Source: Hahella chejuensis KCTC 2396 | Lineage (GTDB): Bacteria > Pseudomonadota > Gammaproteobacteria > Pseudomonadales > Oleiphilaceae | Reading direction: 5' to 3' | Length of the DNA stretch: 64,000 bases | NCBI RefSeq assembly: GCF_000012985.1 | Contig: NC_007645.1 | Span: forward strand, 3,688,501 to 3,752,500 | Part shown: positions 47,302-60,608 of the stretch, one piece after another | Numbering within the stretch: the stretch's first letter is position 1 | How the letters are laid out: each line of letters begins with the position of its first letter | The notes under the pieces: generated by a model | Databases searched by the model: none | Seen by the model: only the letters and a program-made list of their open reading frames with translations | What the model was told of the DNA's origin: nothing | Made by a program: the position numbers and the translations under genes

Positions 47302-47646
47302 TCAGCTGGTCGCCGCCTCCAGCGTCTCATCCTCGGTCCCCTGCTCTGAATAAGCCGGGAAACGATCCAGCTCTTCCATCGCCCTCACCTGCGCGACGTT
47401 TTCGGGACTCACCAACACCTCCACGCGCACCAGCCCCAACGCTTCCAGGCGCTTGGCGTAGTTGGCCAGCACATTCTTTTCAATCTGGCCGATTCGGGTG
47501 TTCGACAACCCTGTGCGTCGCACGATCAGCTTCCTGCGAACGTGTTTAACCAATAAGTCATGCGCGATAATACGATTGGATTCGGCCAGTTCCATGCCGG
47601 AGATGGCGATCCGGAATTGTTCTTCTGTCATGGGAGCGATTACCAC
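47302..47646 (-). CDS. KorA/TrfB-like DNA-binding regulator
   Basis: 114 residues. The start MTEEQFRIAISGMELAESNR and the helix-turn-helix region VRRKLIVRRTGLSNTRIGQIEKN follow the pattern of plasmid RK2 KorA/TrfB proteins, which repress plasmid maintenance operons. Finding one on what looks like chromosome suggests plasmid ancestry or a local regulator. It is divergent from the MatP-like gene. Two CCTTAAGCTT copies in the gap may be its operators. Confidence 0.7.
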   Translation of the reverse strand: MVIAPMTEEQFRIAISGMELAESNRIIAHDLLVKHVRRKLIVRRTGLSNTRIGQIEKNVLANYAKRLEALGLVRVEVLVSPENVAQVRAMEELDRFPAYSEQGTEDETLEAATS

Positions 47647-47842: not shown

Positions 47843-48256
47843 ATGCGAAAAAAGTACGACATTCAAGCGCTGGATTATGAGTACGCCAAACGCTGGATCG
47901 ACAATAAATTCCACGACGCCTCTTTCCCCAGTGAAACCGACGCCGCCCCTGAGCGCCGCAGACGCGCCGGCAGGGAGCTGGCCCGGGCCGCCAGCCATGG
48001 CTCCTTGAACGCCTGGTGCGAGAAGTGGATGTCCTCACGGGAATGGAGCGCCATGAAGAACGCCATCCGCGCCGCCCGTCTGCGCCGGGAAAAGCAAAGA
48101 GGAACCGCCATCCCCACCCGCGGCGTCGACCTGAACGTCATGGCCCACCAGATCGTCAGCGCCCTGGCCAAGGCTGAAGGCGTGACCATTAGTGAATTGA
48201 TAGAGAGGAAGTTGAAGAAGGATTATGCAAAGTTGAAGAAATCTCGCAAAGCCTGA
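47843..48256 (+). CDS. MatP-like (macrodomain Ter) DNA-binding protein
   Basis: 137 residues, close to E. coli MatP (150). The middle LNAWCEKWMSSREWSAMKNA followed by IRAARLRREKQR aligns with the MatP helices before its ribbon-helix-helix. VDLNVMAHQIVSALAKAEGV then TISELIERKL is the ribbon-helix-helix itself. The C-terminal coiled-coil tail of MatP is short here. MatP organises the terminus region by binding matS and acting with the divisome. This diverged copy may serve a plasmid-like or local function rather than be the main MatP. Confidence 0.7.
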   Translation: MRKKYDIQALDYEYAKRWIDNKFHDASFPSETDAAPERRRRAGRELARAASHGSLNAWCEKWMSSREWSAMKNAIRAARLRREKQRGTAIPTRGVDLNVMAHQIVSALAKAEGVTISELIERKLKKDYAKLKKSRKA

Positions 48257-48389
48257 AGCTCTCCCTGCAGCTCGCTTTTCAAAACCCGCCGCCTGCATTC
48301 CGCCGCCTCTACGCCAACGCCAACCTGAGCAGACTTGACGCATCACCAGATGTGCGGCTATGGGCTACCTCATTTCGCGTTTTATTAAG

Positions 48390-48445
48390 CGGCGGCTAGC
48401 CGCAGCAGACAAATAGAAAGAAGCTATTTGTCTGCCTGATTAAAT
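48390..48445 (+). repeat. Dispersed multi-hairpin element, copy 4 (short)
   Basis: GCGGCGGCTAGCCGC, then directly the third hairpin CAGACAAATAG/CTATTTGTCTG and CCTGATTAA; the middle hairpin is missing. Lies upstream of the biosynthetic operon. Confidence 0.75.
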
Positions 48446-48548
48446 TACACATTCCAAGTGGAAGAACCCAAGAAGAGAGACTAGGGTTTATTACAGAAAT
48501 CAAAAGCATGCAGTCAGGTATTACAACGAACATTCACAAGGGAACTTC

Positions 48549-50207
48549 ATGGACGACCAAACGCTTCACCATCATCAAGAAAAGTCCGTTGCAACGTTAC
48601 TTGTAGAGGCGCTAAAAAGCAGCCCACAACCGTATATTCTGACCTACCTGAACAAAGGCGGCGAGCTTGGGGAGACCCGATATACCCCGAGCCAGTTGTT
48701 GGCCGAGAGCGCCCAGTACGCCGAACGCTTGCGCGCAGACATGAACGGCGCCCGCACAGCTTTGCTCTCAATGGAGCCGGGCTGCCATTTTGTCATCGCC
48801 CTGCTGGGATGCATATTTTCCGGCATTACGGCCATCCCCGTCCCGGCGCCTCGCTCTCCCAAAGAAATGGTTCGACTACAGGCGATCATGAGTGACAGCC
48901 ATACGCGCCAAATTATTTGTGACGCGAATACACTGGCGTACTTTCAAAAAGAGACTTCAGACGATGATCGACTTCAGTTAATTCATATTTCAATCGACGC
49001 AAACGAAGTCGACAGTCGGGCGGGCGCTTTCATACAGGAACCAACGATCACGCCTTTTATCTCTCCACATGAGCCCGTCATCATTCAGTACACCTCCGGC
49101 TCGACCAAAGCGCCAAGAGGCGTCAAAGTCTCGGAGAGAAACATTCTCGCAAACCAGCGCATCTCCGCGGAGAAGTGGCGCTTCGCCCCAGAAAAAAACA
49201 TGTTGTCCTGGCTGCCTCATTACCATGACATGGGGTTGTTCGGGAGCATTATTTACCCGCTTATGACGGGCATGCAGTGCATATTGATGAGCCCTGTCGA
49301 CTTTATCAAGCAGCCGCTGCGCTGGTTGTCCGCCGTCAGTAAGCACCGCGCCGCCATCAGCGGAGGCCCCGCTTTCGCTTATCAGTTATGCCTGGATATA
49401 GCGCCGGATGACTTTATCAGGGGACTGGATCTCTCCTGCTGGCAGGCGGCGTATTGCGGCGCAGATTATGTGCCGCACCAGCTACTTGAAAATGTCAGGA
49501 AAAGATTCAGCGCAGCGGGTTTACACTCTCGCTCCGTCCTGGCTTGTTACGGTCTCGCCGAAAGCACACTGTATGTGGGGGGGGAAAAGATCTGGGAAGA
49601 CTTGCCGGAGGTGTTCGCCCAGCGCAGTAATCCACTCACTACCTGTGAGGGCTGCTATCTCGGGCGGACATTTGATCACATAAGAATACTGTCGAGCGAG
49701 GGCGGGAAAGAGCAACCGCCCGGAGAAACCGGAAAGATCTATATCAGCAGCGATAGCGTTACGGAAGGCTACGTCAACGCGGAATTGCCTGTATTCGAGG
49801 AAAACGGAAGAACTTGGCTGGACACAGGGGACATTGGCTTCATCAAGGATAACTTCCTGTTTATCACCGGTCGTGAGAAAGACATGGTGGTGATTCACGG
49901 AAAAAACATATTCACCAACGATCTGGCGTTGAACGCAGCGAACACTATCAACACGCTGAACCCCAACGCCTGTGTGCTCTACAAACGGGAGCCGGACCAT
50001 AGGCTGACGATGTTGATAGAAACCAAGAACAAGACCGCTGAGTTCGATGAAGAGCAAGTCGCCTTGATCAAACGGCAGGTGTTTGATGAGTTCGGCGTCA
50101 GTCTCATGGATGTCTCTATTCTTCCAAGAGGCTCAATGCCCCGGACTTCAAGCGGCAAAGTACAAGCCGATCTGGTTCGGCGCAGCTACGCGGAACAAGC
50201 AGTATGA
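48549..50207 (+). CDS. Fatty acyl-AMP ligase (FAAL)
   Basis: 552 residues. Adenylation motifs: IQYTSGSTKAPRGVKVSERN (A3), WLPHYHDMGLFG (the FAAL-type form), ACYGLAESTLYVGG (A5), FITGREKDMVVIHGKN (A8 with the FAAL form), and RTSSGK as A10. FAALs activate fatty acids as adenylates and load them on a carrier protein instead of CoA. The ACP is three genes downstream. First gene of a seven-gene operon; ATG after AAGGGAAC. Confidence 0.92.
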   Translation: MDDQTLHHHQEKSVATLLVEALKSSPQPYILTYLNKGGELGETRYTPSQLLAESAQYAERLRADMNGARTALLSMEPGCHFVIALLGCIFSGITAIPVPAPRSPKEMVRLQAIMSDSHTRQIICDANTLAYFQKETSDDDRLQLIHISIDANEVDSRAGAFIQEPTITPFISPHEPVIIQYTSGSTKAPRGVKVSERNILANQRISAEKWRFAPEKNMLSWLPHYHDMGLFGSIIYPLMTGMQCILMSPVDFIKQPLRWLSAVSKHRAAISGGPAFAYQLCLDIAPDDFIRGLDLSCWQAAYCGADYVPHQLLENVRKRFSAAGLHSRSVLACYGLAESTLYVGGEKIWEDLPEVFAQRSNPLTTCEGCYLGRTFDHIRILSSEGGKEQPPGETGKIYISSDSVTEGYVNAELPVFEENGRTWLDTGDIGFIKDNFLFITGREKDMVVIHGKNIFTNDLALNAANTINTLNPNACVLYKREPDHRLTMLIETKNKTAEFDEEQVALIKRQVFDEFGVSLMDVSILPRGSMPRTSSGKVQADLVRRSYAEQAV

Positions 50208-51286
50208 GGCCTCCGACCGTCCAGAGTCAGGAGCTGGCCCTTAAGCTCTTAAGCCATAAAAAACTGGCGGCGTTTTCCATTGAAGATTATGTGGAAAAGC
50301 TACACCAGGAGAGCGGAGAGGACTTCTCCTACCTTATCCAGGTCACGCGCGCCATGCTGTCCTTCATGGAAGGAGCGTCGCACCTGGCGTTGAAAAAGGT
50401 CGCGCTCTCGTCTCTACAGCACGGGCTGATCATCATGGACAAGCTCTGTCTGCACGCTGTTACGCGGGAGCGTCTGCAACAGCTGAAGCTTCAATCGCAG
50501 GTAGATCTGGTCAACGATCTGTGCGATCCCCTTTTCACCGACATGATCAGCATCCTGTTTGGGCTTGATATCCCTGATCGAGCGGACTTCCTCGCCCTGA
50601 TTGATAAAGCCGCCGCCATCACGGAGCCATTATTACCAATAAGACGTTTAAAAGAAGTGCAAAACGCCTTTCTGACATTGCGCGACATGATAGGCGGGCA
50701 ATGGCGAACGCTGAGGCCCGGGATATTATCCGCCATGCAGCAGCATGGCGACGGACTGGGTCAGGAAGAGCTGCTTATATTGATGGCGACTCTGGTGATA
50801 GCTTCGCGTACGACCACAGAGACGCTGGCGGGCGTCATGCTGGAAAACAGCGGGAAAGACGGCTGCCGACATGGGTTGATGGGCGACCCGCAATGGGTGG
50901 AAGAGCATATAGAGGGCATGATCAGACTGTGCGCCTCTACGGAATACCTCACCCGTGTCGCCAAAGAGTCGGTCCAGATCGGTGACCTGCCCCTTGCAGC
51001 GGCGGGTCAGGTATTTATCCACGCCCCTTCCGCCAACCGCGACCCCAGCTACTACCCCGACAATCATTTTTCAGGATTGGAGCGCAGTAAACATTGCCGC
51101 CACATCGCCTTTGGCGGCGGCAGTCATCGCTGTCCCGGGGCGAATCTCGCAAAAGTCACGCTCAGCGCCGTAATTCCGATTATTTATTCCACTCTGGAGC
51201 GTATCGACATAGATCCAAAGGCCGTGCGATACAAAAACTCAACCTTCGCCAAACGACCAGCGAGTATTCCCGCATATGTTTGCTGA
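50204..51286 (+). CDS. Cytochrome P450-like protein with altered core motifs (copy 1)
   Basis: 360 residues, about 40 shorter than usual, with an ATGA overlap with the FAAL. The haem loop is intact: FGGGSHRCPGANLAK. ANRDPSYYPDNHF is typical. The oxygen-activating I-helix reads ASRTTTET where A-G-x-[DE]-T-T is expected, so the acidic residue is Thr. At the ExxR position the protein reads GMIR, so Glu is missing by one place. It probably binds haem but may not be a normal monooxygenase. Family clear, chemistry unknown. Confidence 0.85.
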   Translation: MRPPTVQSQELALKLLSHKKLAAFSIEDYVEKLHQESGEDFSYLIQVTRAMLSFMEGASHLALKKVALSSLQHGLIIMDKLCLHAVTRERLQQLKLQSQVDLVNDLCDPLFTDMISILFGLDIPDRADFLALIDKAAAITEPLLPIRRLKEVQNAFLTLRDMIGGQWRTLRPGILSAMQQHGDGLGQEELLILMATLVIASRTTTETLAGVMLENSGKDGCRHGLMGDPQWVEEHIEGMIRLCASTEYLTRVAKESVQIGDLPLAAAGQVFIHAPSANRDPSYYPDNHFSGLERSKHCRHIAFGGGSHRCPGANLAKVTLSAVIPIIYSTLERIDIDPKAVRYKNSTFAKRPASIPAYVC

Positions 51287-52379
51287 CGAACCAACGCTTG
51301 TACGCAGAAGTAAGTTCGAAAACAAAAACGGCATCGTCATCCTGGACAACTATCACGACGCTGCGATGGTGTTATCAGACAAAGCGTTCCACGTTCCGGA
51401 TCTGCCTGGCTTCCTGCGCAAACTGGAAACCCACGCCACGGTGGATTTGCGCTATCTGAAGCTATATGTCGATAACTCGCCTTTCTTTCTGGAAGGAGAA
51501 AAACACAAACAGCTGAGAGACATCTGCCTTCGCTACCTCAGCGGCCAGGGTCTGAAAGAGTTGGACGACGTTATTTCCTCCCAGACCGGCGTCATCCTGG
51601 AGAGCTTACCGAGCGCCCCTTTTGACGCAATCACTTTGATAGGCAAACCTGTCTTCACCCTGATTATCAAACCGATTCTCGGGCTACGCCCCGCCGAGAG
51701 CGATAAATTCGATCGCCTGGCTATGGTGCTGCAACGTCTGATAGAGCCCATGCTATCCCTGAACAACCTTGCCAGAATTAATTCCGAGCTGGAATGGCTG
51801 ACCCATCAGATTCAGCGACAGTTCGAAAAAGAACCCTCGCCGGGCGGTGTATTGGCGAGGTTAATGGCGGATGAGGAAACACCGCTTTCGGGCGAAGAAA
51901 AGATCGCCCTTGTCATCACCCTGTACGCCGCAGTGGCGCCATTGGCGCAAACGCTGTGCAATATGATCGACGTTCTGTACCGAAATGGAGCGCCCGCCCC
52001 TTGCGAACCAGCGCAATTGCTGGAACAACTGCCTTTCTACATTCATCAGGGCGCCGCCCCCCGCTTCATACACCGGGTCGCGTCAGAGTCCCGCAGAATC
52101 GGCGGAGTCGCCATCCGTCAAGGCGACACGGTGATGATCGACATAGCAAGAGCGGCCCTGACGGAAGCAGGCCCGCCAGGACAACGTTTAAGGCACTACA
52201 GTTTCGGGCATGGCGCGCATTTCTGCATTGGCGCGCCATTATCCAAACGCATTGTCAGCGAGTTTATTCCGCGATTTTTTCAGCAGTTCCCCAGTTTACG
52301 AGTCATCGAAAAGCAGTATGACGAGAACAATCATATCGCCAGAGCATTAACTTCGTTAATTGTGAGCCCAGATCCATGA
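51276..52379 (+). CDS. Cytochrome P450-like protein with altered core motifs (copy 2)
   Basis: 367 residues, overlapping copy 1 by 11 bases. The haem loop FGHGAHFCIGAPLSK is intact. The I-helix is YAAVAPLAQTL, with no A-G-x-[DE]-T-T at all, and the K-helix region LEQLPFYIHQGAAPRF has no ExxR. The rest (FIHRVASESRRIGGVAIRQG) is P450-like. Strong loss of canonical residues suggests a non-oxygenating or peroxide-dependent role, or a partner for copy 1. Confidence 0.85.
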   Translation: MFADEPTLVRRSKFENKNGIVILDNYHDAAMVLSDKAFHVPDLPGFLRKLETHATVDLRYLKLYVDNSPFFLEGEKHKQLRDICLRYLSGQGLKELDDVISSQTGVILESLPSAPFDAITLIGKPVFTLIIKPILGLRPAESDKFDRLAMVLQRLIEPMLSLNNLARINSELEWLTHQIQRQFEKEPSPGGVLARLMADEETPLSGEEKIALVITLYAAVAPLAQTLCNMIDVLYRNGAPAPCEPAQLLEQLPFYIHQGAAPRFIHRVASESRRIGGVAIRQGDTVMIDIARAALTEAGPPGQRLRHYSFGHGAHFCIGAPLSKRIVSEFIPRFFQQFPSLRVIEKQYDENNHIARALTSLIVSPDP

Positions 52380-52627
52380 AACTAGAAAAAGAATATATCG
52401 TTAGCTTTATTCTTGATCGCGCCTCTGAACTGACCAAAACGTCCCGCGAACAACTTATTGGAGACACGGCATTAGCCTCAATTGGGGTGGATTCGTTATA
52501 CGCCGTCTTGATTTGCGGGCGGCTGGAGGATCATTTCGGGATTGAGATTGAACCAATCCTGATGTTCGAGCACCGCACCGCCAATGAGGTCGCTGACGCA
52601 TTATTAAAGATGGCGCAGCCCGTATGA
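52376..52627 (+). CDS. Acyl carrier protein
   Basis: 83 residues, ATGA overlaps on both sides. Ser of GVDSLYAV carries phosphopantetheine (residue 42). The FGIEIEPILMFEHRTANEVA part is standard ACP helix III-IV. Likely substrate carrier for the FAAL product and the site where the P450-like proteins act. Confidence 0.92.
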   Translation: MKLEKEYIVSFILDRASELTKTSREQLIGDTALASIGVDSLYAVLICGRLEDHFGIEIEPILMFEHRTANEVADALLKMAQPV

Positions 52628-54309
52628 GTCGCTACTACATTGGTCTGTCCACATCTGGCCATGACCCTTCTTTCTGCATCGTCAACAGTGACGGCCAGGT
52701 CCTCTTCGCTGAAGCGACCGAGCGGTTTTTACAGGACAAAAGAGCCTGGGGCGTCATGCCGGACCATATCAGCCACATTGAAAGCGTCCTGAAACCCTTG
52801 ATTTCCAAGGATAATAAAGCGGAATTTATAGTCGCCACCAGTTGGAAAGCCGTCAAGGAAGAATTGCCGGTGCAAATATCCGACGCACTGCTACCCGCCT
52901 CCCTGGGAGAGTGGATTCGCCACCAGCAGGGCTATGTGCAAGCCAGAGCCGGCAATCATTGTAGAATGGCGCTGGGAGAGCGGATGCTTGGCGATGTGCG
53001 CCACTATGACCATCACCTGTGTCACGCCGCCAACGCCTTGTATTCTTCGCCCTTCACTGATGGCCTTTGCCTGGTGCTGGATGGCGAGGGCGAAGTGGGC
53101 GCCGCCAGTTTATTTGAGTTAAACGACGGCGCACTCAAGAGAGCCTGGCGCTCATGGGGACCAGGCAGTTTAGGCGCTCTCTACGGCTGGTTGACCGAAT
53201 TATGCGGGTTCAGCACGCGTCATGGAGAAGAGTGGAAAGTGATGGGTCTGGCGGCATACGGTCAGGCGGACGAGCATCTTGTCGCCGACATCAAGTCCAT
53301 TATTCAGGTTGATTCGGGCCGCCTGCAATTATCTGACAAGGAGCGGATAAGGGAGGTCGTGACATCCTTGCAGCGTCTGGCCAGAAAGCCTGAAGACTCC
53401 ATACTAAGTCAGGCGCGACTCGCCATGTCCGCGCAACAGGCTTACACAGAGCTTGTCGACCAGATCCTTGATGACATTAAGACACAGTACCCCCAAGCCG
53501 CTAACCTTTTGCTATCCGGCGGGTGTGCGCTCAACTCGCTCTACAATGGACGCATCCGGCGACAACATGGGTACGAACAGGTCCATGCGCCGCCCGCCCC
53601 AGCGGACGACGGTAACTCTCTTGGCGCAGCCATTCTCGCATGGGCCGAGGACAACAGCGCCTCCCGACTGCCCAGTGGCTATCTCTCACCCTATCTCGGA
53701 TCAACCATAGCATCATCGGATATCGAAGCGGTTGCACGATACTCCGGGCTTACGGTCACCACACTCCCCGATGAGCATGCGGAATTGGTCGCCAATGAAC
53801 TCGCTTCAGGAAAAGTCATTGGGGTAGCTCGCGGCAGAGCGGAATTCGGCCCCCGCGCACTAGGAAACCGGTCGATCCTGGCCGACCCCAGAAGCCCTGA
53901 AATGAAAGACAGGATTAACGCGATCATTAAAGGACGAGAGTCTTATCGTCCGTTTGCGCCCGCGCTCCCTGAAGAACTCATTCAGGACTGGTTCGATGAT
54001 GCGCACCCGTCCCCTTACATGTCATTCGCATTGCCCTGGAAAAAGGAAAAACGCGCTTTCGCGCCCGCCGTCGTACACAATGATGGAAGCGGAAGACTGC
54101 AAAGCGTTTCTCCCGCCCGATCCCCCTGGTTTCATCGTTTATTACACGCCTTTGCAGATATAACCGGAACGCCTGTTCTCTTGAACACCAGTTTCAATGT
54201 GATGGGCAAACCCATTGTCCACTCGGCCCACGACGCCATTTCTGTGCTGATGACCACAGGCTTGGACGCGGTTCTCCTGGACAATCATTACATTCAGAAA
54301 AAGAGGTAG
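52624..54309 (+). CDS. Carbamoyltransferase, NodU/CmcH/TobZ family
   Basis: 561 residues. The N-terminal Kae1-like domain has YIGLSTSGHDPSFCIVNSDG, HHLCHAANALYSS (metal His) and CLVLDGEGE; the C-terminal YrdC-like region has GRAEFGPRALGNRSILADPR and LLNTSFNVMGKPIVHS. Uses carbamoyl phosphate and ATP to add a carbamoyl group to a hydroxyl of a natural product. It implies the acyl chain or a partner carries a hydroxyl. ATGA overlap with the ACP gene. Confidence 0.93.
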   Translation: MSRYYIGLSTSGHDPSFCIVNSDGQVLFAEATERFLQDKRAWGVMPDHISHIESVLKPLISKDNKAEFIVATSWKAVKEELPVQISDALLPASLGEWIRHQQGYVQARAGNHCRMALGERMLGDVRHYDHHLCHAANALYSSPFTDGLCLVLDGEGEVGAASLFELNDGALKRAWRSWGPGSLGALYGWLTELCGFSTRHGEEWKVMGLAAYGQADEHLVADIKSIIQVDSGRLQLSDKERIREVVTSLQRLARKPEDSILSQARLAMSAQQAYTELVDQILDDIKTQYPQAANLLLSGGCALNSLYNGRIRRQHGYEQVHAPPAPADDGNSLGAAILAWAEDNSASRLPSGYLSPYLGSTIASSDIEAVARYSGLTVTTLPDEHAELVANELASGKVIGVARGRAEFGPRALGNRSILADPRSPEMKDRINAIIKGRESYRPFAPALPEELIQDWFDDAHPSPYMSFALPWKKEKRAFAPAVVHNDGSGRLQSVSPARSPWFHRLLHAFADITGTPVLLNTSFNVMGKPIVHSAHDAISVLMTTGLDAVLLDNHYIQKKR

Positions 54310-54319
54310 GCCGGACGAG

Positions 54320-55876
54320 ATGAAAATCTCCTACCTCACCTTCTACCTGCTGGTGTTTCCGGCGATCTTCTGCCTCTTCTCCTTGTTCAGAAAAATAGCC
54401 CCCGCCTACGCCCGACTGAGCGTCGCCTTTGCGTCGATGTTGTTTCTCGCCTTCGCTGACTTGGTTTCGCTCGCCATTCTGCTCGCCGTCGTTCTGATCA
54501 ACTTGAACCTGATTCGGAGCATGGAGGCCAATCCTCACAGGAAAAAGCTGTATAAACTGGCGGGAATTACAGTGAGCCTTGCTCCGTTGATCTTCTATAA
54601 GCTGTTCGGAGGTAAGGTTCACTTCGACAGCGGGCTTGCCCAATCCCTTTTGCTCCCGCTGGGTCTTGCGTTCTACTCACTGCAACAGGTCACCGCGATT
54701 GTCGACTCCGCCAACGGGCAGGTTAAGTCTATTCAAGTAGGCGACTATCTGTTCTTTTCTTTCTTCTTCGCCACACTCACCTCCGGCCCCATCATCACCT
54801 ATAAAGACATGATGGGACAGTTGCGGCAAGGGGCCTCGCCTTCCACCTACAACACAGATTTGGGAATCAGCCTGTTTATTCTCGGCTTCGCCAAGAAAAC
54901 ACTGATCGCAGACCCAATAGAAAGCATGACAGGCGCTTTATTGCAGGTCAGTAGAATCAATCCGGAAACCTACTTTTCCCTAACGGAGCTTCTATATATT
55001 TTCTGGGGCGGCATGCTGAGCTTCTACTACGTTTTCTCCGCCTATTCAGATATGGCCATTGGCATCGCCTTATTTTTCGGCGTCCGCTTGCCCGTCAACT
55101 TTAACTCGCCCCTAAAAGCCAAAACCCCGCAACAGTACGTCATGTCCTGGCATATGAGTTTCATGGCGTTTGTCAGACAATATGTCTTTCAACCGGTTTA
55201 TCTCCTATTGAAAAAAGCGCCTGTCAAAGACCTCAATACGCGTTATCTCTTAGCATGGGCCGGGGCTGTCTTTTGCTCTTTTGGCGTAGTCGGCGTCTGG
55301 CATGCGCCAGATATTGTCACTGTGGCGATCAGCCTGTGCGTCGCACTCACCATTGTATGCGTTGAATCGTCATCCTTATTACTCAGAAGACGCAAGGTCC
55401 CCTCATCACATTTCCCCGGCATATTCTCAAGAGTAATTTTGCTCAGCTTTATTTGCCTTTGCGCGATTAAGTTCACTCATCCTGATTTTGAGATAGTCCG
55501 CGCATTCACCGACATGCTTGCGCATAATCCAACCCTTTTCGTATCTGACAGGCTTGCCTTCCTCTCCGACTATCTTCATGGCGAATGGATCGAGTACTAC
55601 AGCTTTTTCCCAACGCTCACAACCGTCAATCGTTATGAGATTGCGCAGCCGACGCTATCGCCGGATCTCAGTATGCTTCACATTCTGATCGTTACCGCGA
55701 TTACCTTTTGTTGCCCTAACTCTATGCAAATATTTGGGTTGCTGGAGGAAAAAGGGACGTCCGATGTTACGCCGCGCTGGAGTAATCGCTTGCGCGCCGC
55801 CATAGCTGCGGGCGTCTTGCTGTGTCTGTCCCTATCCTTCGCCAATAATGGCTCCAGCTTCAGTTATGGCGGGTGA
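54320..55876 (+). CDS. MBOAT-family membrane O-acyltransferase
   Basis: 518 residues with about eleven hydrophobic segments. MBOAT landmarks: PLGLAFYSLQQVTAIVDSAN, FVRQYVFQPVYLLLKK after SWHMSFMAF, and the catalytic His in VVGVWHAPD. Like AlgI or DltB it should pass an acyl group across the inner membrane to a secreted acceptor. Followed after three bases by the SGNH-like gene, the usual partner of such proteins. Confidence 0.9.
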   Translation: MKISYLTFYLLVFPAIFCLFSLFRKIAPAYARLSVAFASMLFLAFADLVSLAILLAVVLINLNLIRSMEANPHRKKLYKLAGITVSLAPLIFYKLFGGKVHFDSGLAQSLLLPLGLAFYSLQQVTAIVDSANGQVKSIQVGDYLFFSFFFATLTSGPIITYKDMMGQLRQGASPSTYNTDLGISLFILGFAKKTLIADPIESMTGALLQVSRINPETYFSLTELLYIFWGGMLSFYYVFSAYSDMAIGIALFFGVRLPVNFNSPLKAKTPQQYVMSWHMSFMAFVRQYVFQPVYLLLKKAPVKDLNTRYLLAWAGAVFCSFGVVGVWHAPDIVTVAISLCVALTIVCVESSSLLLRRRKVPSSHFPGIFSRVILLSFICLCAIKFTHPDFEIVRAFTDMLAHNPTLFVSDRLAFLSDYLHGEWIEYYSFFPTLTTVNRYEIAQPTLSPDLSMLHILIVTAITFCCPNSMQIFGLLEEKGTSDVTPRWSNRLRAAIAAGVLLCLSLSFANNGSSFSYGG

Positions 55877-55879
55877 GCA

Positions 55880-56836
55880 GTGACCCGTTATATGAAGTGC
55901 ATCGCCTGTGTCGTCGCCCTTTTTTACGCCGTGGTCATTCCTGTAAACATCTTTATGGACCCGCTGGGTTTGGGTTGGGTAACGGAGGTGACGGACGAAC
56001 CTGGAATCTATGATGAAATTAATACGCGACTGGTTTTCGAGGACATACGCGCCGCACTGACCAAGACCTCCGCCGCCAAAGTGCTGATCGGATCGTCCCG
56101 GGTGATGAGAGGCTTCGACACCTGCGCTCTTAACTCCATTCTTAACATAGGCGTCAGTACTATCACTTCCGCGCAGACAGAATACCTTGTCGATTATGCG
56201 GTGCGTCTGAACAAGTTCGACGTCATTCTTGTGGAGGCACTGCCTTACACGCCGCCGGAGAATATCTTGTCCGCCCAAAAAGGCCTTGTCGCCAAATTGA
56301 TCAGCCTGAGAACGTTCTTCTTATCTTTTAAGGCGCTGAGAGACAAATTCAGTCCCAAACCTCTTGCGAAGTTTGATTGCAGCCAGTCCGGTTCGGCTGG
56401 CTCTTTCTTTACTGAAGTGAGCACGCTTGACAAAAGAGTGTATCGACAATATCGCTATATCTCGAGGTATGCGAGCAACATTGCTCTGGAGATCAAACGG
56501 ATTCAAAGAAAGGCAAGTGCGCAAACCAAGGTTATTCCATTTATTCCACCAGTCCATCCAGACTTATTGAGCCCGGAGGAGGTCGACCAATTACTGATGG
56601 AAATAAGCGGCATGCTGGGTGAGAAAAACAGCCTGGTGTCATACTCAGAAATATATGATCGCGAATTTCTGGATAAGCCGACACTGTGGCAGGACGCCAA
56701 TCATTTCAGCCCCGAATTAGGCGCAAGCTACCTTCAGTATCTTGTCCAAGTCAGCAAATCCGAGGAAAGGCATCCTATGCGCGGTCACGACACTATAAAA
56801 ATTAACTACACTAATTCTTATATCAAAATCCTGTGA
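55880..56836 (+). CDS. SGNH-like membrane-anchored protein, probable MBOAT partner
   Basis: 318 residues from a GTG. One N-terminal membrane anchor (ACVVALFYAVVIPVNIF), then a periplasmic domain with VLIGSSRVMRGFDTC (the GSSR Ser-strand of AlgJ/DltD-type SGNH relatives) and a C-terminal DANHFSPELGASYL (Asp-x-x-His). These two motifs would form the SGNH Ser/Asp/His site. Last gene of the operon. It probably completes acyl transfer outside the membrane. Confidence 0.75.
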   Translation: MTRYMKCIACVVALFYAVVIPVNIFMDPLGLGWVTEVTDEPGIYDEINTRLVFEDIRAALTKTSAAKVLIGSSRVMRGFDTCALNSILNIGVSTITSAQTEYLVDYAVRLNKFDVILVEALPYTPPENILSAQKGLVAKLISLRTFFLSFKALRDKFSPKPLAKFDCSQSGSAGSFFTEVSTLDKRVYRQYRYISRYASNIALEIKRIQRKASAQTKVIPFIPPVHPDLLSPEEVDQLLMEISGMLGEKNSLVSYSEIYDREFLDKPTLWQDANHFSPELGASYLQYLVQVSKSEERHPMRGHDTIKINYTNSYIKIL

Positions 56837-56868
56837 ACCCCACGCATACCTGAGCAGCTAGCGCCGAT

Positions 56869-57696
56869 ATGGATACTCTAACTTTGCAGCCGGCCTCAAA
56901 GCAGCGCGCCCAGTTACTGCTGTGCGCTTTGCGCACGCTTACCTTTTGCCTTTCCTTTAGTTGTATTTCAGTATCCGCCCAGGCTGGTGAAACCATTTCC
57001 ATCGCTACTGGCGAGTATATCCCCTGGACGTCGCAGAAAGGCCCCCATGGCGGCTTCATAAGCCATGTCGTTACGGAGGTTTTTAAGCGCCAGGGGATCG
57101 ACGTCACTTTCGAATACTACCTTTGGGCCCGCAGCTATGAGCAGGCGAAGCAGGGCCTGCATAACGCCGCATCCTATTGGGCGTGCAGCGAAGAGCGGAA
57201 GAAGGATTTTTATTGCAGCGAGCCTCTGGCGGAGGAGGACACTGTCTTCTTTCACCTTAAGACCACTCCGCTGGAAAAATGGAACGCCCTCGACGACCTG
57301 CGTCCTTACAGCATCGGCGCCACGATTGGTTATACCTATACCAAAGAATTCTGGGCGGCGGCGGAGTCCGGGATGTTGCGAGTCAGCACCGTCCCGGAGG
57401 ATGAACAGAACTTCAACATGCTGGCGCTGAATCGCATTGACCTGTGCCTGATGGGCCCGGTCGCCGGTCTGACATTGCTGCGCCAGCAGTTTCCCAAAGC
57501 CATCAGGGAATCCATCACTTACAACCCCAAACCCCTCGTCACCACTCATCTGAGCCTGCTGTTTCCCAAGGCCCACAAGGATTCCTTGCGTCTGATGTTG
57601 ATCTTCAACGAGGGGCTCCGGCAGGTCCGCGCCGAGGGGCTCTATGATCGTTACATGACGGACCTGCTGGCTGGAGAATACGATCCGAAAAACTGA
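56869..57696 (+). CDS. Periplasmic solute-binding protein, SBP_bac_3-like, orphan
   Basis: 275 residues with a signal peptide ending SVSAQAG. SIATGEYIPWTSQKGPHGGF, VTEVFKRQGIDVTFEYYLWARSYEQ and DLCLMGPVAGLTLLRQQFP are family 3 features. Its ATG follows the operon end by 32 bases, so it may be co-transcribed, but nothing links its function to the pathway. Fourth orphan of this family in the window. Confidence 0.85.
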   Translation: MDTLTLQPASKQRAQLLLCALRTLTFCLSFSCISVSAQAGETISIATGEYIPWTSQKGPHGGFISHVVTEVFKRQGIDVTFEYYLWARSYEQAKQGLHNAASYWACSEERKKDFYCSEPLAEEDTVFFHLKTTPLEKWNALDDLRPYSIGATIGYTYTKEFWAAAESGMLRVSTVPEDEQNFNMLALNRIDLCLMGPVAGLTLLRQQFPKAIRESITYNPKPLVTTHLSLLFPKAHKDSLRLMLIFNEGLRQVRAEGLYDRYMTDLLAGEYDPKN

Positions 57697-58778: not shown

Positions 58779-59026
58779 TGGTCAGCACCGCAAAGCTGAC
58801 CTCGCCTGCGCCTGAATAAACCCGCAAATTACACGGCGCTTTCGTCACAAACAGCATGTGGATTTACCCGATTCGACGTTAATTGCCTGGCGCACCACGG
58901 TTTCTTAAACTACACGGAATATGCGGCTGGTCATGCGTGCGGCTTCGGCGATGGGAGCCTCTTCGCTCCCTAAAGAACTCCGCCCAGGTTGCCGCACATC
59001 CCAGGCTATCAACAGGAGAACACTTA

Positions 59027-59503
59027 TTGTCCGACACCCTATCTGAGCTGCTATTCAGCCCAAACCCCATATGGCATTACTTCTGGATAGCCTGGATGCT
59101 GGTCTTGTTTTCAGTGTTGCTCATTCAGCTTCCACTGGCTTACTTCGCCTTGGTCAGACCTTTCGACAAGAAGTTCGAAATGAAAAATATCATTCTGGAA
59201 AGGGGGATTTTCTATGGCAGCTTTATCGTCCGCCTGACCAACTACGTTCACGGCATTGTATTTGAGCCTTATCGCGGCAAGCTTTCCAACCCGATCGCCA
59301 AAAGGCTCATTGATGGCAAGTTTGCATATCAGGATCGGCTGTATGAAAAGAGAATTAATATGCGATCCTCCGCCAGCCCCCTTCAAATAGTCCTGAGCTA
59401 CATTTTAGTAGCCAGCACTATCGTGATGGTCGGCGGCATGATTCCGTTGCTTATCCATAACTTTATTCTCTACCCTGACTTCGCTGCAGCGCATGGCGGC
59501 TAA
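59027..59503 (+). CDS. Membrane protein, tandem paralogue 1
   Basis: 158 residues from a TTG after CAGGAGAA; the aligned second copy also begins with TTG. Two hydrophobic helices (about 14-37 and 120-146) flank a basic segment LVRPFDKKFE, and the C-terminus reads LIHNFILYPDFAAA. Three copies follow each other with about 50-60 percent identity by eye. Family not recognised. A longer frame back to 58883 lacks a ribosome site. Confidence 0.75.
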   Translation: MSDTLSELLFSPNPIWHYFWIAWMLVLFSVLLIQLPLAYFALVRPFDKKFEMKNIILERGIFYGSFIVRLTNYVHGIVFEPYRGKLSNPIAKRLIDGKFAYQDRLYEKRINMRSSASPLQIVLSYILVASTIVMVGGMIPLLIHNFILYPDFAAAHGG

Positions 59504-59624
59504 AGTTCCACTACCTTCATGACGACCTCTGTTACTCTGCATTTGTATCGAAGTCCGCACATTAGTTGGGTCCGTGCCGGTTGTATGACCCCATGCCGCC
59601 GCATATTTTGACAGGAGTAACGTA

Positions 59625-60101
59625 TTGGCTGACGCCCCACCTGAGCTGCTTCTTAGCCCAAACCCACTATGGCATTACTATTGGGTATCTTGGGGGCTGG
59701 TTTTATTTTCAATATTATTAGTCCAGCTTCCTGTCGCCTATTTCACGCTCGTCAGGCCCTTTGATAAGAAGTTTGAGATTAAGTATTACACGCTGGAAAA
59801 AGGGATTTTCTATGTCAGCTTTTTGATGCGACTGTTCAATTACGTGGCGGGGATATTGGTGCAGCCTTATAAAGACAAGCCTTTGAAAGGTCTCGCGCAA
59901 CGATTTGTGAATGGACGTCTCGGCTATCAGGAGCGCGTCTATAAGAAGACCGTTAACTTTCGCGCTCATGCCTCCGGGTTTCAAATCTCGCTGTGCTATA
60001 TCATGCTGATCAGCACAGTTATATTGTTTGTGGGCGTCATCCCCTTACTCATACATGACTTTATTCTCTACCCTGACTTCGCCGCAGCCCGGAATAATTA
60101 G
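59625..60101 (+). CDS. Membrane protein, tandem paralogue 2
   Basis: 158 residues from a TTG after AGGAGTAA. Same layout as copies 1 and 3: SPNPLWHYYWVSWGLVLFSI, LVRPFDKKFEIKYYTLEKGI, LIHDFILYPDFAAA. Closest to copy 3. Confidence 0.78.
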   Translation: MADAPPELLLSPNPLWHYYWVSWGLVLFSILLVQLPVAYFTLVRPFDKKFEIKYYTLEKGIFYVSFLMRLFNYVAGILVQPYKDKPLKGLAQRFVNGRLGYQERVYKKTVNFRAHASGFQISLCYIMLISTVILFVGVIPLLIHDFILYPDFAAARNN

Positions 60102-60134
60102 TCGCCAGACCATTTTGAGTCACGAGAGTTGTCC

Positions 60135-60608
60135 ATGCCTTCACCTTCAATGCTCTTTTTAAGCCCCAACGCCTATTGGCATTACGGGTTGCTTATCTGG
60201 GGGCTGGTCATGTTCTCAATTCTGCTTATTCAGTTGCCTGTGGCTTATTTCTCCATCGTCAGGCCTTTCGATAAGAAGTTTGAGATTCGGCAATACACGC
60301 TGGAGAAAGGGATCTTCTATCTCAGCTTCCTGATTCGACTATTCAACTATGTGTCGGGCATTTTGCTGCAACCTTACAAAGGCAGGCCCCTTAAAGGGCT
60401 CGCCAAAAGGTTTGTGGAGGGGCGCTTCAATTACCAGAAAAGCGTTTACAGGAAGAGCATTAACTTTCGCGCTCACGCTTCAAGGTTTCAAATCGGTCTC
60501 TGTTATGTCCTGGTTGTCAGCACCGTCATTATGTTTGGCGGGCTGATTCCGCTGCTTATCCATAACTTTATTCTCTACCCGGATTTCGCCGCGGCGCGCG
60601 GAGGATAA
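60135..60608 (+). CDS. Membrane protein, tandem paralogue 3
   Basis: 157 residues from the ATG at 60135; a TTG at 60129 would match the start of copies 1 and 2. Same pattern: IVRPFDKKFEIRQYTLEKGI and LIHNFILYPDFAAARGG. Each paralogue has its own ribosome site, and the gaps are 120 and 30 bases. Confidence 0.78.
   Translation: MPSPSMLFLSPNAYWHYGLLIWGLVMFSILLIQLPVAYFSIVRPFDKKFEIRQYTLEKGIFYLSFLIRLFNYVSGILLQPYKGRPLKGLAKRFVEGRFNYQKSVYRKSINFRAHASRFQIGLCYVLVVSTVIMFGGLIPLLIHNFILYPDFAAARGG

Follow-up and report, generated by a model that had tools for sequence, protein, structure and literature searches.

In this study, a seven-gene operon of Hahella chejuensis KCTC 2396 was analyzed within a window of 64,000 nucleotides (the whole stretch of DNA under analysis), which belongs to a single-contig genome of 7,215,267 bases. 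All seven genes lie on the + strand, between positions 48549 and 56836 of the window. The first gene (48549..50207) encodes a fatty acyl-AMP ligase (FAAL) of 552 amino acids, with a Pfam AMP-binding match of 1.1e-46 and FAAL-type solved relatives. It is followed by two P450-like proteins, P450-1 (type a; 50204..51286; 360 amino acids; Pfam p450, 1.1e-9) and P450-2 (type b; 51276..52379; 367 amino acids; Pfam p450), both characterized by a motif table and the second also by a profile and a structure model. A stand-alone acyl carrier protein (ACP; 52376..52627; 83 amino acids; Pfam PP-binding, 5.4e-12) has its attachment serine at Ser40, and the next gene encodes an O-carbamoyltransferase (52624..54309; 561 amino acids; Pfam Carbam_trans_N, 1.9e-33, and Carbam_trans_C, 1.4e-65). 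The last two genes encode an MBOAT acyltransferase (54320..55876; 518 amino acids; Pfam MBOAT, 1e-12) with a C-terminal Tyr516 and a candidate SGNH-like acyltransferase partner (55880..56836; 318 amino acids), which was recognized by alignment, structure model, and Foldseek. The intergenic distances are, in order, -4, -11, -4, -4, +10, and +3 bases. An earlier reading made from the letters of the window (the sequence-only reading) had described seven genes at these positions that overlap or abut by a few bases and carry no ketosynthase or condensation domain. The open reading frame (ORF) list and the measured distances bear out the layout, and no Pfam match to a ketosynthase or condensation domain family was found in any of the seven proteins.

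The operon, plus little else, is gained or lost as a unit, because its flanks adjoin in the congener G008, where about 225 bases stand in place of window positions 48224-56977 (blastn). The presence/absence unit, the stretch without a counterpart in G008, is therefore 48224..56977; at this empty site, a MatP-like gene directly adjoins the solute-binding-protein gene, with no operon between them. The SGNH gene is present in three of seven Hahella genomes (the window genome included), and the two other positive congeners retain all seven genes with 75-95% protein identity. The G+C content of the operon (52.8%) is the same as that of the window. The solute-binding protein (56869-57696) was considered as an eighth gene and rejected, as it stays in the congener without the operon. 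The sequence-only reading had also placed the cluster just after plasmid-type regulators. A homologue of the plasmid repressor KorA (TrfB) does lie upstream, at 47302-47646, with the MatP-like gene at 47843-48256, but both are chromosomal, and neither is a member of the operon, since both also occur at the G008 site that lacks it. The KorA homologue was found in four of the seven Hahella genomes. A plasmid origin was ruled out by the 7.2-Mb single contig and by the KorA homologue at the same place in the operon-less congener. A DNA-level search of plasmids gave no match.

The distribution of the cluster was examined in 84,980 genomes, which were scanned once with a carbamoyltransferase alignment of five rows. 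The scan returned 259 relatives, a lower bound because it requires exact short peptides, and the best 80 of the 259 were analyzed. Thirty of these 80 (L012-L040 and L051) have at least 47% carbamoyltransferase identity, and in 28 of the 30 a stretch of 6 kb contains the genes for FAAL, P450, ACP, and carbamoyltransferase, all on the same strand; the exceptions are L019, without FAAL, and L040, without FAAL and frameshifted. The ACP of L036 is weak in the cluster profile and was found as PP-binding in Pfam. Among the other 50 of the best 80, some of which are on short contigs with cut flanks, the four-gene core with a stand-alone ACP was found in none; three of them have a P450 close to a weak match of the FAAL profile (26-42 bits). 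In the carbamoyltransferase tree (L040 left out), 33 cluster enzymes separate from 8 outside with a support of 100/100. The hosts of the core belong to Pseudomonadota, Bacteroidota (Galbibacter, Pedobacter), and Verrucomicrobiota (Puniceicoccaceae), and Idiomarina has the same seven gene kinds in a different order, with FAAL downstream. Conservation in the congeners, the empty site, the tree, and the 28 of 30 loci rule out a chance co-location of common genes, and the proposal of one operon conserved as a block in other genomes is borne out.

The cluster is rare. In 369 genomes sampled from the class of the window, no other P450 match at E 1e-30 came near the cluster type: the scores were at most 132.7 bits, vs 405 for the type-b P450 of the window (at most five candidates scored per genome; window genome excepted), and on these scores general P450 relatives were rejected as cluster markers. 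Plasmid searches with the P450s and the MBOAT revealed two roseobacter plasmids that carry the same core; plasmids searched with the SGNH protein and viral contigs searched with the type-b P450 gave no match. One Rhodobacter genome (NTK016B) contains two different cluster copies, L019 and L021, one of them without FAAL, and a Breoghania metagenome-assembled genome contains a decayed copy (L040, 7709-11700), with carbamoyltransferase and P450 in several frames and no FAAL match. The sequence-only reading knew of no described pathway with this combination; in the open-access literature searched, likewise, no description of this gene set was found, and the terms carbamoyl, AMP ligase, and MBOAT were found in neither PMC9030710 nor PMC7998510, as far as the consulted passages of these papers go.

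The core is joined to different end modules in different loci. In the comparison of 33 core loci (L009-L040 and L051; L008 is from the same genome as L012), which include near copies such as L010/L030 and L011/L016, MBOAT and SGNH genes were found in 17. A thioesterase-like protein was found in seven (L011, L016, L017, L019, L026, L031, and L036), and a tetratricopeptide repeat (TPR) protein with a shared C-terminal region in eight (L014, L018, L021, L023, L025, L027, L038, and L040), where L025 was assigned by pairwise BLAST only (E 9e-5), as the profile did not match it. None of the three was seen in L022, whose contig starts inside the FAAL gene. Two end modules were not seen together in any of the 33 loci. 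In L010 and L030, which are of the MBOAT and SGNH type, a TPR protein lies several kb away; its TPR part matches with 35 and 34 bits, respectively, and the C-terminal region of the profile is unmatched. The swapping of end modules between loci argues for an acyl thioester as the joint product of FAAL, P450, ACP, and carbamoyltransferase, with a destination that would be set by the last module. It is tentatively suggested, with somewhat less than even confidence, that a modular core builds a carbamoylated acyl thioester for three interchangeable ends and that its P450s act on acyl-ACP without a proton-relay acid. The sequence-only reading had seen no thioesterase or dedicated exporter in the operon; the idea that a release or export step is lacking is not supported, since the MBOAT-SGNH pair is itself a known route (passages of PMC12148441), and relatives use thioesterase-like or TPR proteins.

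The TPR proteins of five loci that lie beside the core, with MBOAT absent, carry an STHxG-like C-terminal motif (L018, 12066-14453; L021, 11744-14458; L027, 11720-14338; L038, 3053-5845; L014, 3765-5801). In Pfam, only the TPR part of those from L014, L018, and L027 was matched, and the protein is possibly an unrecognized acyltransferase. A gene for a FeeM-type N-acyl amino acid synthase flanks the MBOAT-less cluster of L014 (670-1266).

The last two proteins of the Hahella operon have the features of an MBOAT and SGNH pair, and this assignment of the sequence-only reading is supported by Pfam, by invariant catalytic residues, and by a modest fold match. Each was aligned in 16 sequences, the MBOATs being those of the window and 15 loci. 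The MBOAT scores above the Pfam cutoff, the histidines of WH278 and WH328 are invariant in 16/16, as is a tyrosine near the C-terminus, and DltB is the sole PDB relative of its profile at E 0.01. In the SGNH-like protein, which matched no family in Pfam, Ser73, Asp272, and His275 are invariant in 16/16, and an N-terminal helix is predicted at residues 2-26. Its structure model (predicted local distance difference test, pLDDT, 76.5) retrieved SGNH hydrolases in Foldseek, with DltD at rank 10 (E 3.5e-3). These scores are modest (best E 1e-3, query TM-scores of about 0.4), and the best match of its profile to the PDB (E 0.03) is unconvincing. According to passages of PMC12148441, MBOAT-SGNH systems are a known route for an activated acyl group across the membrane onto an external polymer, and in PatA the acyl group reaches the SGNH partner by way of a C-terminal tyrosine.

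For the MBOAT control, the best matches in 385 alphaproteobacterial genomes were used; 37 genomes had a match at E 1e-90, and 20 loci, one per genome, were compared. All 20 control MBOATs end in the shuttle motif. By the cluster profiles, no ACP, FAAL, P450, or carbamoyltransferase was found within about 1.5 kb (or the contig end) of any of the 20; carriers of other types may escape the ACP profile, which was built from three seeds of the cluster. This absence of ACP and FAAL from the control loci argues for the carrier of the operon as the putative acyl donor. The control MBOATs score at most 389 bits, vs at least 521 for nine cluster MBOATs; with their lower scores and with no carrier or loader beside them, general MBOAT relatives were rejected as cluster markers.

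The sequences supply the parts, the conserved catalytic residues, the inheritance as a unit, and the exchange of end modules; for the substrate, the acceptor, the sequence of reactions, and where oxidation and carbamoylation take place, we infer a scheme of carrier-fed membrane acylation, which we consider on balance, though only just, to be probable. In this scheme, a carbamoylated acyl group would pass via ACP, MBOAT, and SGNH protein to an extracytoplasmic acceptor. The FAAL would activate a fatty acid and load it onto the ACP encoded in the operon. Oxidation of the ACP-bound acyl chain by one P450 or by both would yield a hydroxyl, which the carbamoyltransferase would carbamoylate. On the inner side of the membrane, the ACP would then hand over its carbamoylated acyl group to the MBOAT, which would receive it on the tyrosine near its own C-terminus, and the SGNH protein would take it from there onto its own serine and finally onto a hydroxyl of the acceptor, for which a polysaccharide, secreted or on the cell surface, is the most likely candidate. 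The product is more likely to be an acyl group that decorates an exported polymer than a free small lipid, because MBOAT and SGNH together form a known polymer-acylation route; the small carbamoylated lipid proposed by the sequence-only reading is thus the less likely of the two. Several observations weigh against the scheme, and these concern the MBOAT, the acceptor, and the P450s. The full FXYXXF ending occurs in 7 of the 16 MBOATs, and the window copy ends in FSYGG without it; the window MBOAT also reaches 119.9 bits, far below the NCBIfam DltB cutoff of 375. Further such observations come from the genomic flanks and from the P450 motifs.

Polysaccharide-type genes were found near 5 of 15 MBOAT-type loci when the flanks were inspected protein by protein. 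The flank tally covered up to four ORFs per side in 15 MBOAT-type loci (97/100 ORFs) and 14 MBOAT-less loci (104/106 ORFs), with L025 left out for its cut contig. Among the families listed (25 of 152), polysaccharide-synthesis and epimerase families, with 5 members, top the MBOAT-type tally, and they are absent from the MBOAT-less tally among the families listed there (25 of 90). As far as they could be traced, the five members come from three loci, L024, L032, and L033. The flank of L024 contains a glycosyltransferase, an epimerase, a sugar transferase, and Polysacc_synt_2; that of L033 contains a UDP-sugar dehydrogenase, DegT, and Polysacc_synt_2; and that of L032 contains a UDP-sugar dehydrogenase, a dehydratase, a nucleotidyltransferase, and a member of the PAPS reductase family. 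Weaker cases are L034 (Asn synthase, sugar-transfer ATP-grasp, and sulfotransferase) and L039 (glycosyltransferase 8 with sulfotransferase, and Asn synthase). Pedobacter polysacchareus and Marinomonas are among the hosts with polysaccharide genes next to the cluster. On the opposing side, the nine flank proteins inspected singly in L013, L020, L028, L029, L035, L037, and L051 are unrelated or without a family, a gene of the epimerase family flanks the cluster of the MBOAT-less L025, and none of the 13 Hahella window neighbors scanned in Pfam is of polysaccharide type. The flank of L015 has a nucleotidyltransferase/HEPN gene and a transposase-type gene; for L012 a single flank protein was examined, and L030 was covered by the tally and by its second MBOAT. 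Polysaccharide genes as an exclusive mark of MBOAT-type clusters are thus not clean, given the epimerase of L025 and the unrelated neighbors elsewhere. Because such genes stand near 5 of 15 MBOAT-type loci and are not found among the window neighbors scanned, some relatives point to a glycan acceptor, but for Hahella itself this is not a result.

The same flanks bear on the possibility that the product is a small carbamoylated lipid, diffusible or bound to the membrane, and that the MBOAT has a lipid or a small molecule as its acyl acceptor. The lack of polysaccharide genes among the window neighbors scanned is in keeping with it, and so is the thioesterase-like protein of the sister clusters, which suggests that what the core makes can be released. 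The MBOAT and SGNH protein, however, carry the residues of polymer-acylating pairs (passages of PMC12148441), and polysaccharide-type genes do occur near five of the MBOAT-type relatives; we consider a small lipid fairly unlikely. Downstream of the operon, three tandem paralogous genes (58883-60608) encode small membrane-like proteins of 158-206 amino acids, all listed with TTG starts, which share a WHYxWxxWxLVLFS...VRPFDKKFE-like pattern; for the first of the three, Pfam gave no family.

With regard to the P450s on which the acylation scheme depends for its hydroxyl, two full domains, separate or fused, occur in 25 of the 33 loci, and the type-b domains form one group of 30 (tree support 99/97). 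An alignment of 60 cluster domains with nine other bacterial or archaeal P450s showed the heme-ligand cysteine (FGxGxHxCxG) in 60/60 cluster domains. The column of the I-helix acid is gapped in all 60 and has an acid in six of the nine references; the I-helix threonine at the next position is found in 0/30 type-b and 21/30 other cluster P450s, and a complete ExxR in 0/30, 2/30, and 8/9 references, respectively. In the operon, both P450s keep the heme cysteine; P450-1 lacks the I-helix acid, and P450-2 lacks the acid, the threonine, and ExxR. With the I-helix acid missing, and in type b also the threonine and ExxR, ordinary oxygenation by the cluster P450s is not assured. Eight of the 33 loci have one full P450 domain only, and the operon itself contains no redox partner gene.

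As for the substrate, the type-b profile finds P450BioI as its best PDB match (3.5e-36), and the HMMER alignment of the two shows the same one-residue gap at the I-helix. In the fold search with the P450-2 model (pLDDT 87.8), the first 12 places are taken by acyl-ACP complexes of P450BioI (three entries, 12 chains). These matches support acyl-ACP as a candidate substrate of the type-b P450, with a small fold margin (2.7e-16 to 4.2e-15 for P450BioI, 3.8e-14 for the next, with similar TM-scores); the single sequence of P450-2 retrieved CYP164A2 first, and P450BioI was absent among the 60 matches listed. The missing residues could also mean that the P450s are docking or shaping proteins for acyl-ACP, and that the hydroxyl comes with the acid loaded by the FAAL, for example a 3-hydroxy acid. 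For P450-1, there is also a match to the NCBIfam model of P450-derived glycosyltransferase activators (1.9e-16), but its 60.4 bits are far below the cutoff of 343. Set against such a non-oxygenase role are the heme ligand retained throughout and the cluster P450 of Tateyamaria (L036, 6154-11704), which shows GGDT and DEMIR motifs and falls with the reference P450s; we judge this role unlikely, to much the same degree as the small lipid.

The loading and carbamoylation steps of the acylation scheme agree with the families and conservation of the proteins concerned, as the sequence-only reading had proposed for both. The closest solved relatives of the FAAL are FAAL-type (7r7g, 1.4e-73; 3kxw, 1.7e-71), and against the NCBIfam DltA models it reaches 96.4 and 94.2 bits, below the cutoffs of 476 and 559.85. 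Ser40 of the ACP is invariant in 18/18 aligned sequences. The carbamoyltransferase exceeds the Pfam cutoffs of 24 and 27 bits in both domains (Carbam_trans_N, 116.8 bits; Carbam_trans_C, 220.5 bits), and its nearest solved relatives are 9s2t, GdmN, and TobZ. Its sole NCBIfam match is NodU (169.7 bits), far below the equivalog cutoff of 1000. In 27 of the 29 loci measured, the nearest in-frame start of the carbamoyltransferase overlaps the stop of the ACP, and each of the 16 MBOAT-less core loci retains the enzyme together with P450 and ACP (14 also with FAAL). Both of these observations argue that the carbamate sits on the acyl group. NodU carbamoylates Nod factors, and a carbamoyltransferase that modifies a sugar acceptor, with FAAL, ACP, MBOAT, and SGNH protein separately adding a plain or oxidized acyl group to the same polymer, would fit the NodU match and the polysaccharide-type genes near some MBOAT-type clusters, but is quite improbable in view of the low NodU score, the overlap with the ACP gene, and the persistence of the enzyme where no MBOAT is present.

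In 14 of the 33 loci, MBOAT-type and MBOAT-less alike (L010, 7570-9090; L014, L017, L018, L020, L021, L023, L026, L027, L030, L031, L038, L040, and L051), the core is joined by a B12-binding radical SAM protein, which may add a further acyl modification. Elsewhere in the Hahella genome (L003, 2854-3533; at about 2.905 Mb), frames with FQSTPPRGRR / FNPRLRVGGD repeats adjoin another carbamoyltransferase paralogue, looking like an array of clustered regularly interspaced short palindromic repeats (CRISPR) read as ORFs.

If the reading of a modular core with interchangeable ends is true, its MBOAT-SGNH version would be the first system known to us that uses an MBOAT with a built-in shuttle tyrosine to move a lipid-like, oxidized, and carbamoylated acyl group from a dedicated carrier onto an exported glycan. 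In the MBOAT-SGNH pairs described so far, the group added is acetyl, donated by acetyl-CoA, or D-alanine, donated by DltC; a tailored fatty acyl group from a dedicated carrier would be a new type of donor for bacterial surface acylation. Carbamoylated lipid tails on a polysaccharide would alter the behavior of the surface or of a secreted gum, such as its adhesion and amphiphilicity. The cluster P450s offer a natural test of acyl-ACP oxidation without an I-helix acid, and the mutually exclusive end modules offer a swap system for how acyl carriers meet acceptors.

The individual enzymes of the operon have relatives in several known systems. Cyanobacterial lipopeptide clusters with FAAL and carbamoyltransferase exist, and two Nostocales carbamoyltransferases outside the cluster clade adjoin a FAAL-containing ORF (L043 and L045). 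In these, however, the FAAL is part of an ORF of more than 2,100 residues, presumably an assembly line of polyketide synthase or nonribosomal peptide synthetase type. The FAAL and carbamoyltransferase terms occur together in one laxaphycin review (PMC8471579). Both carbamoyltransferase domains of the operon enzyme are shared with TobZ, GdmN, NodU, and the novobiocin enzyme, although the cluster enzymes form their own clade (33 vs 8, 100/100), with a start that overlaps the ACP stop in 27 of the 29 loci measured. Among solved P450s, P450BioI (CYP107H1) comes closest both to the type-b profile and to the model of P450-2, and its PDB entries listed are acyl-ACP complexes. Type b differs from it in being one residue shorter at the I-helix, in lacking the acid and a complete ExxR, and in usually having a second P450 adjoining or fused; P450BioI is also not the top match of the single P450-2 sequence.

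In the acylation machinery, PatA-PatB, AlgI-AlgX/J, and WssH have a shuttle tyrosine at the C-terminus of the MBOAT, which the operon probably shares, and, like the operon, a separate SGNH protein (passages of PMC12148441 and PMC9558356). The donor of PatA is acetyl-CoA, and pathways other than Dlt have no similar carrier protein, according to passages of PMC12148441, whereas the Hahella operon includes FAAL and ACP. In the Dlt system, an adenylating enzyme loads a carrier, and MBOAT and SGNH proteins carry the acyl group outward (passages of PMC12148441); in the operon, FAAL and ACP stand at the positions of DltA and DltC. Unlike Dlt, the operon has a FAAL instead of DltA, together with P450s and a carbamoyltransferase as likely tailoring enzymes, its putative shuttle tyrosine is at the MBOAT's own C-terminus, and its MBOAT falls below the NCBIfam DltB cutoff. 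The operon also leaves no room for DltX, with gaps of at most 10 bases, the rest of the genome not having been searched for it. In sum, the nearest kind of system would be MBOAT-SGNH surface acylation, here apparently with a dedicated carrier plus a shuttle tyrosine fused to the MBOAT, a combination of which no description was found in the open-access literature searched.

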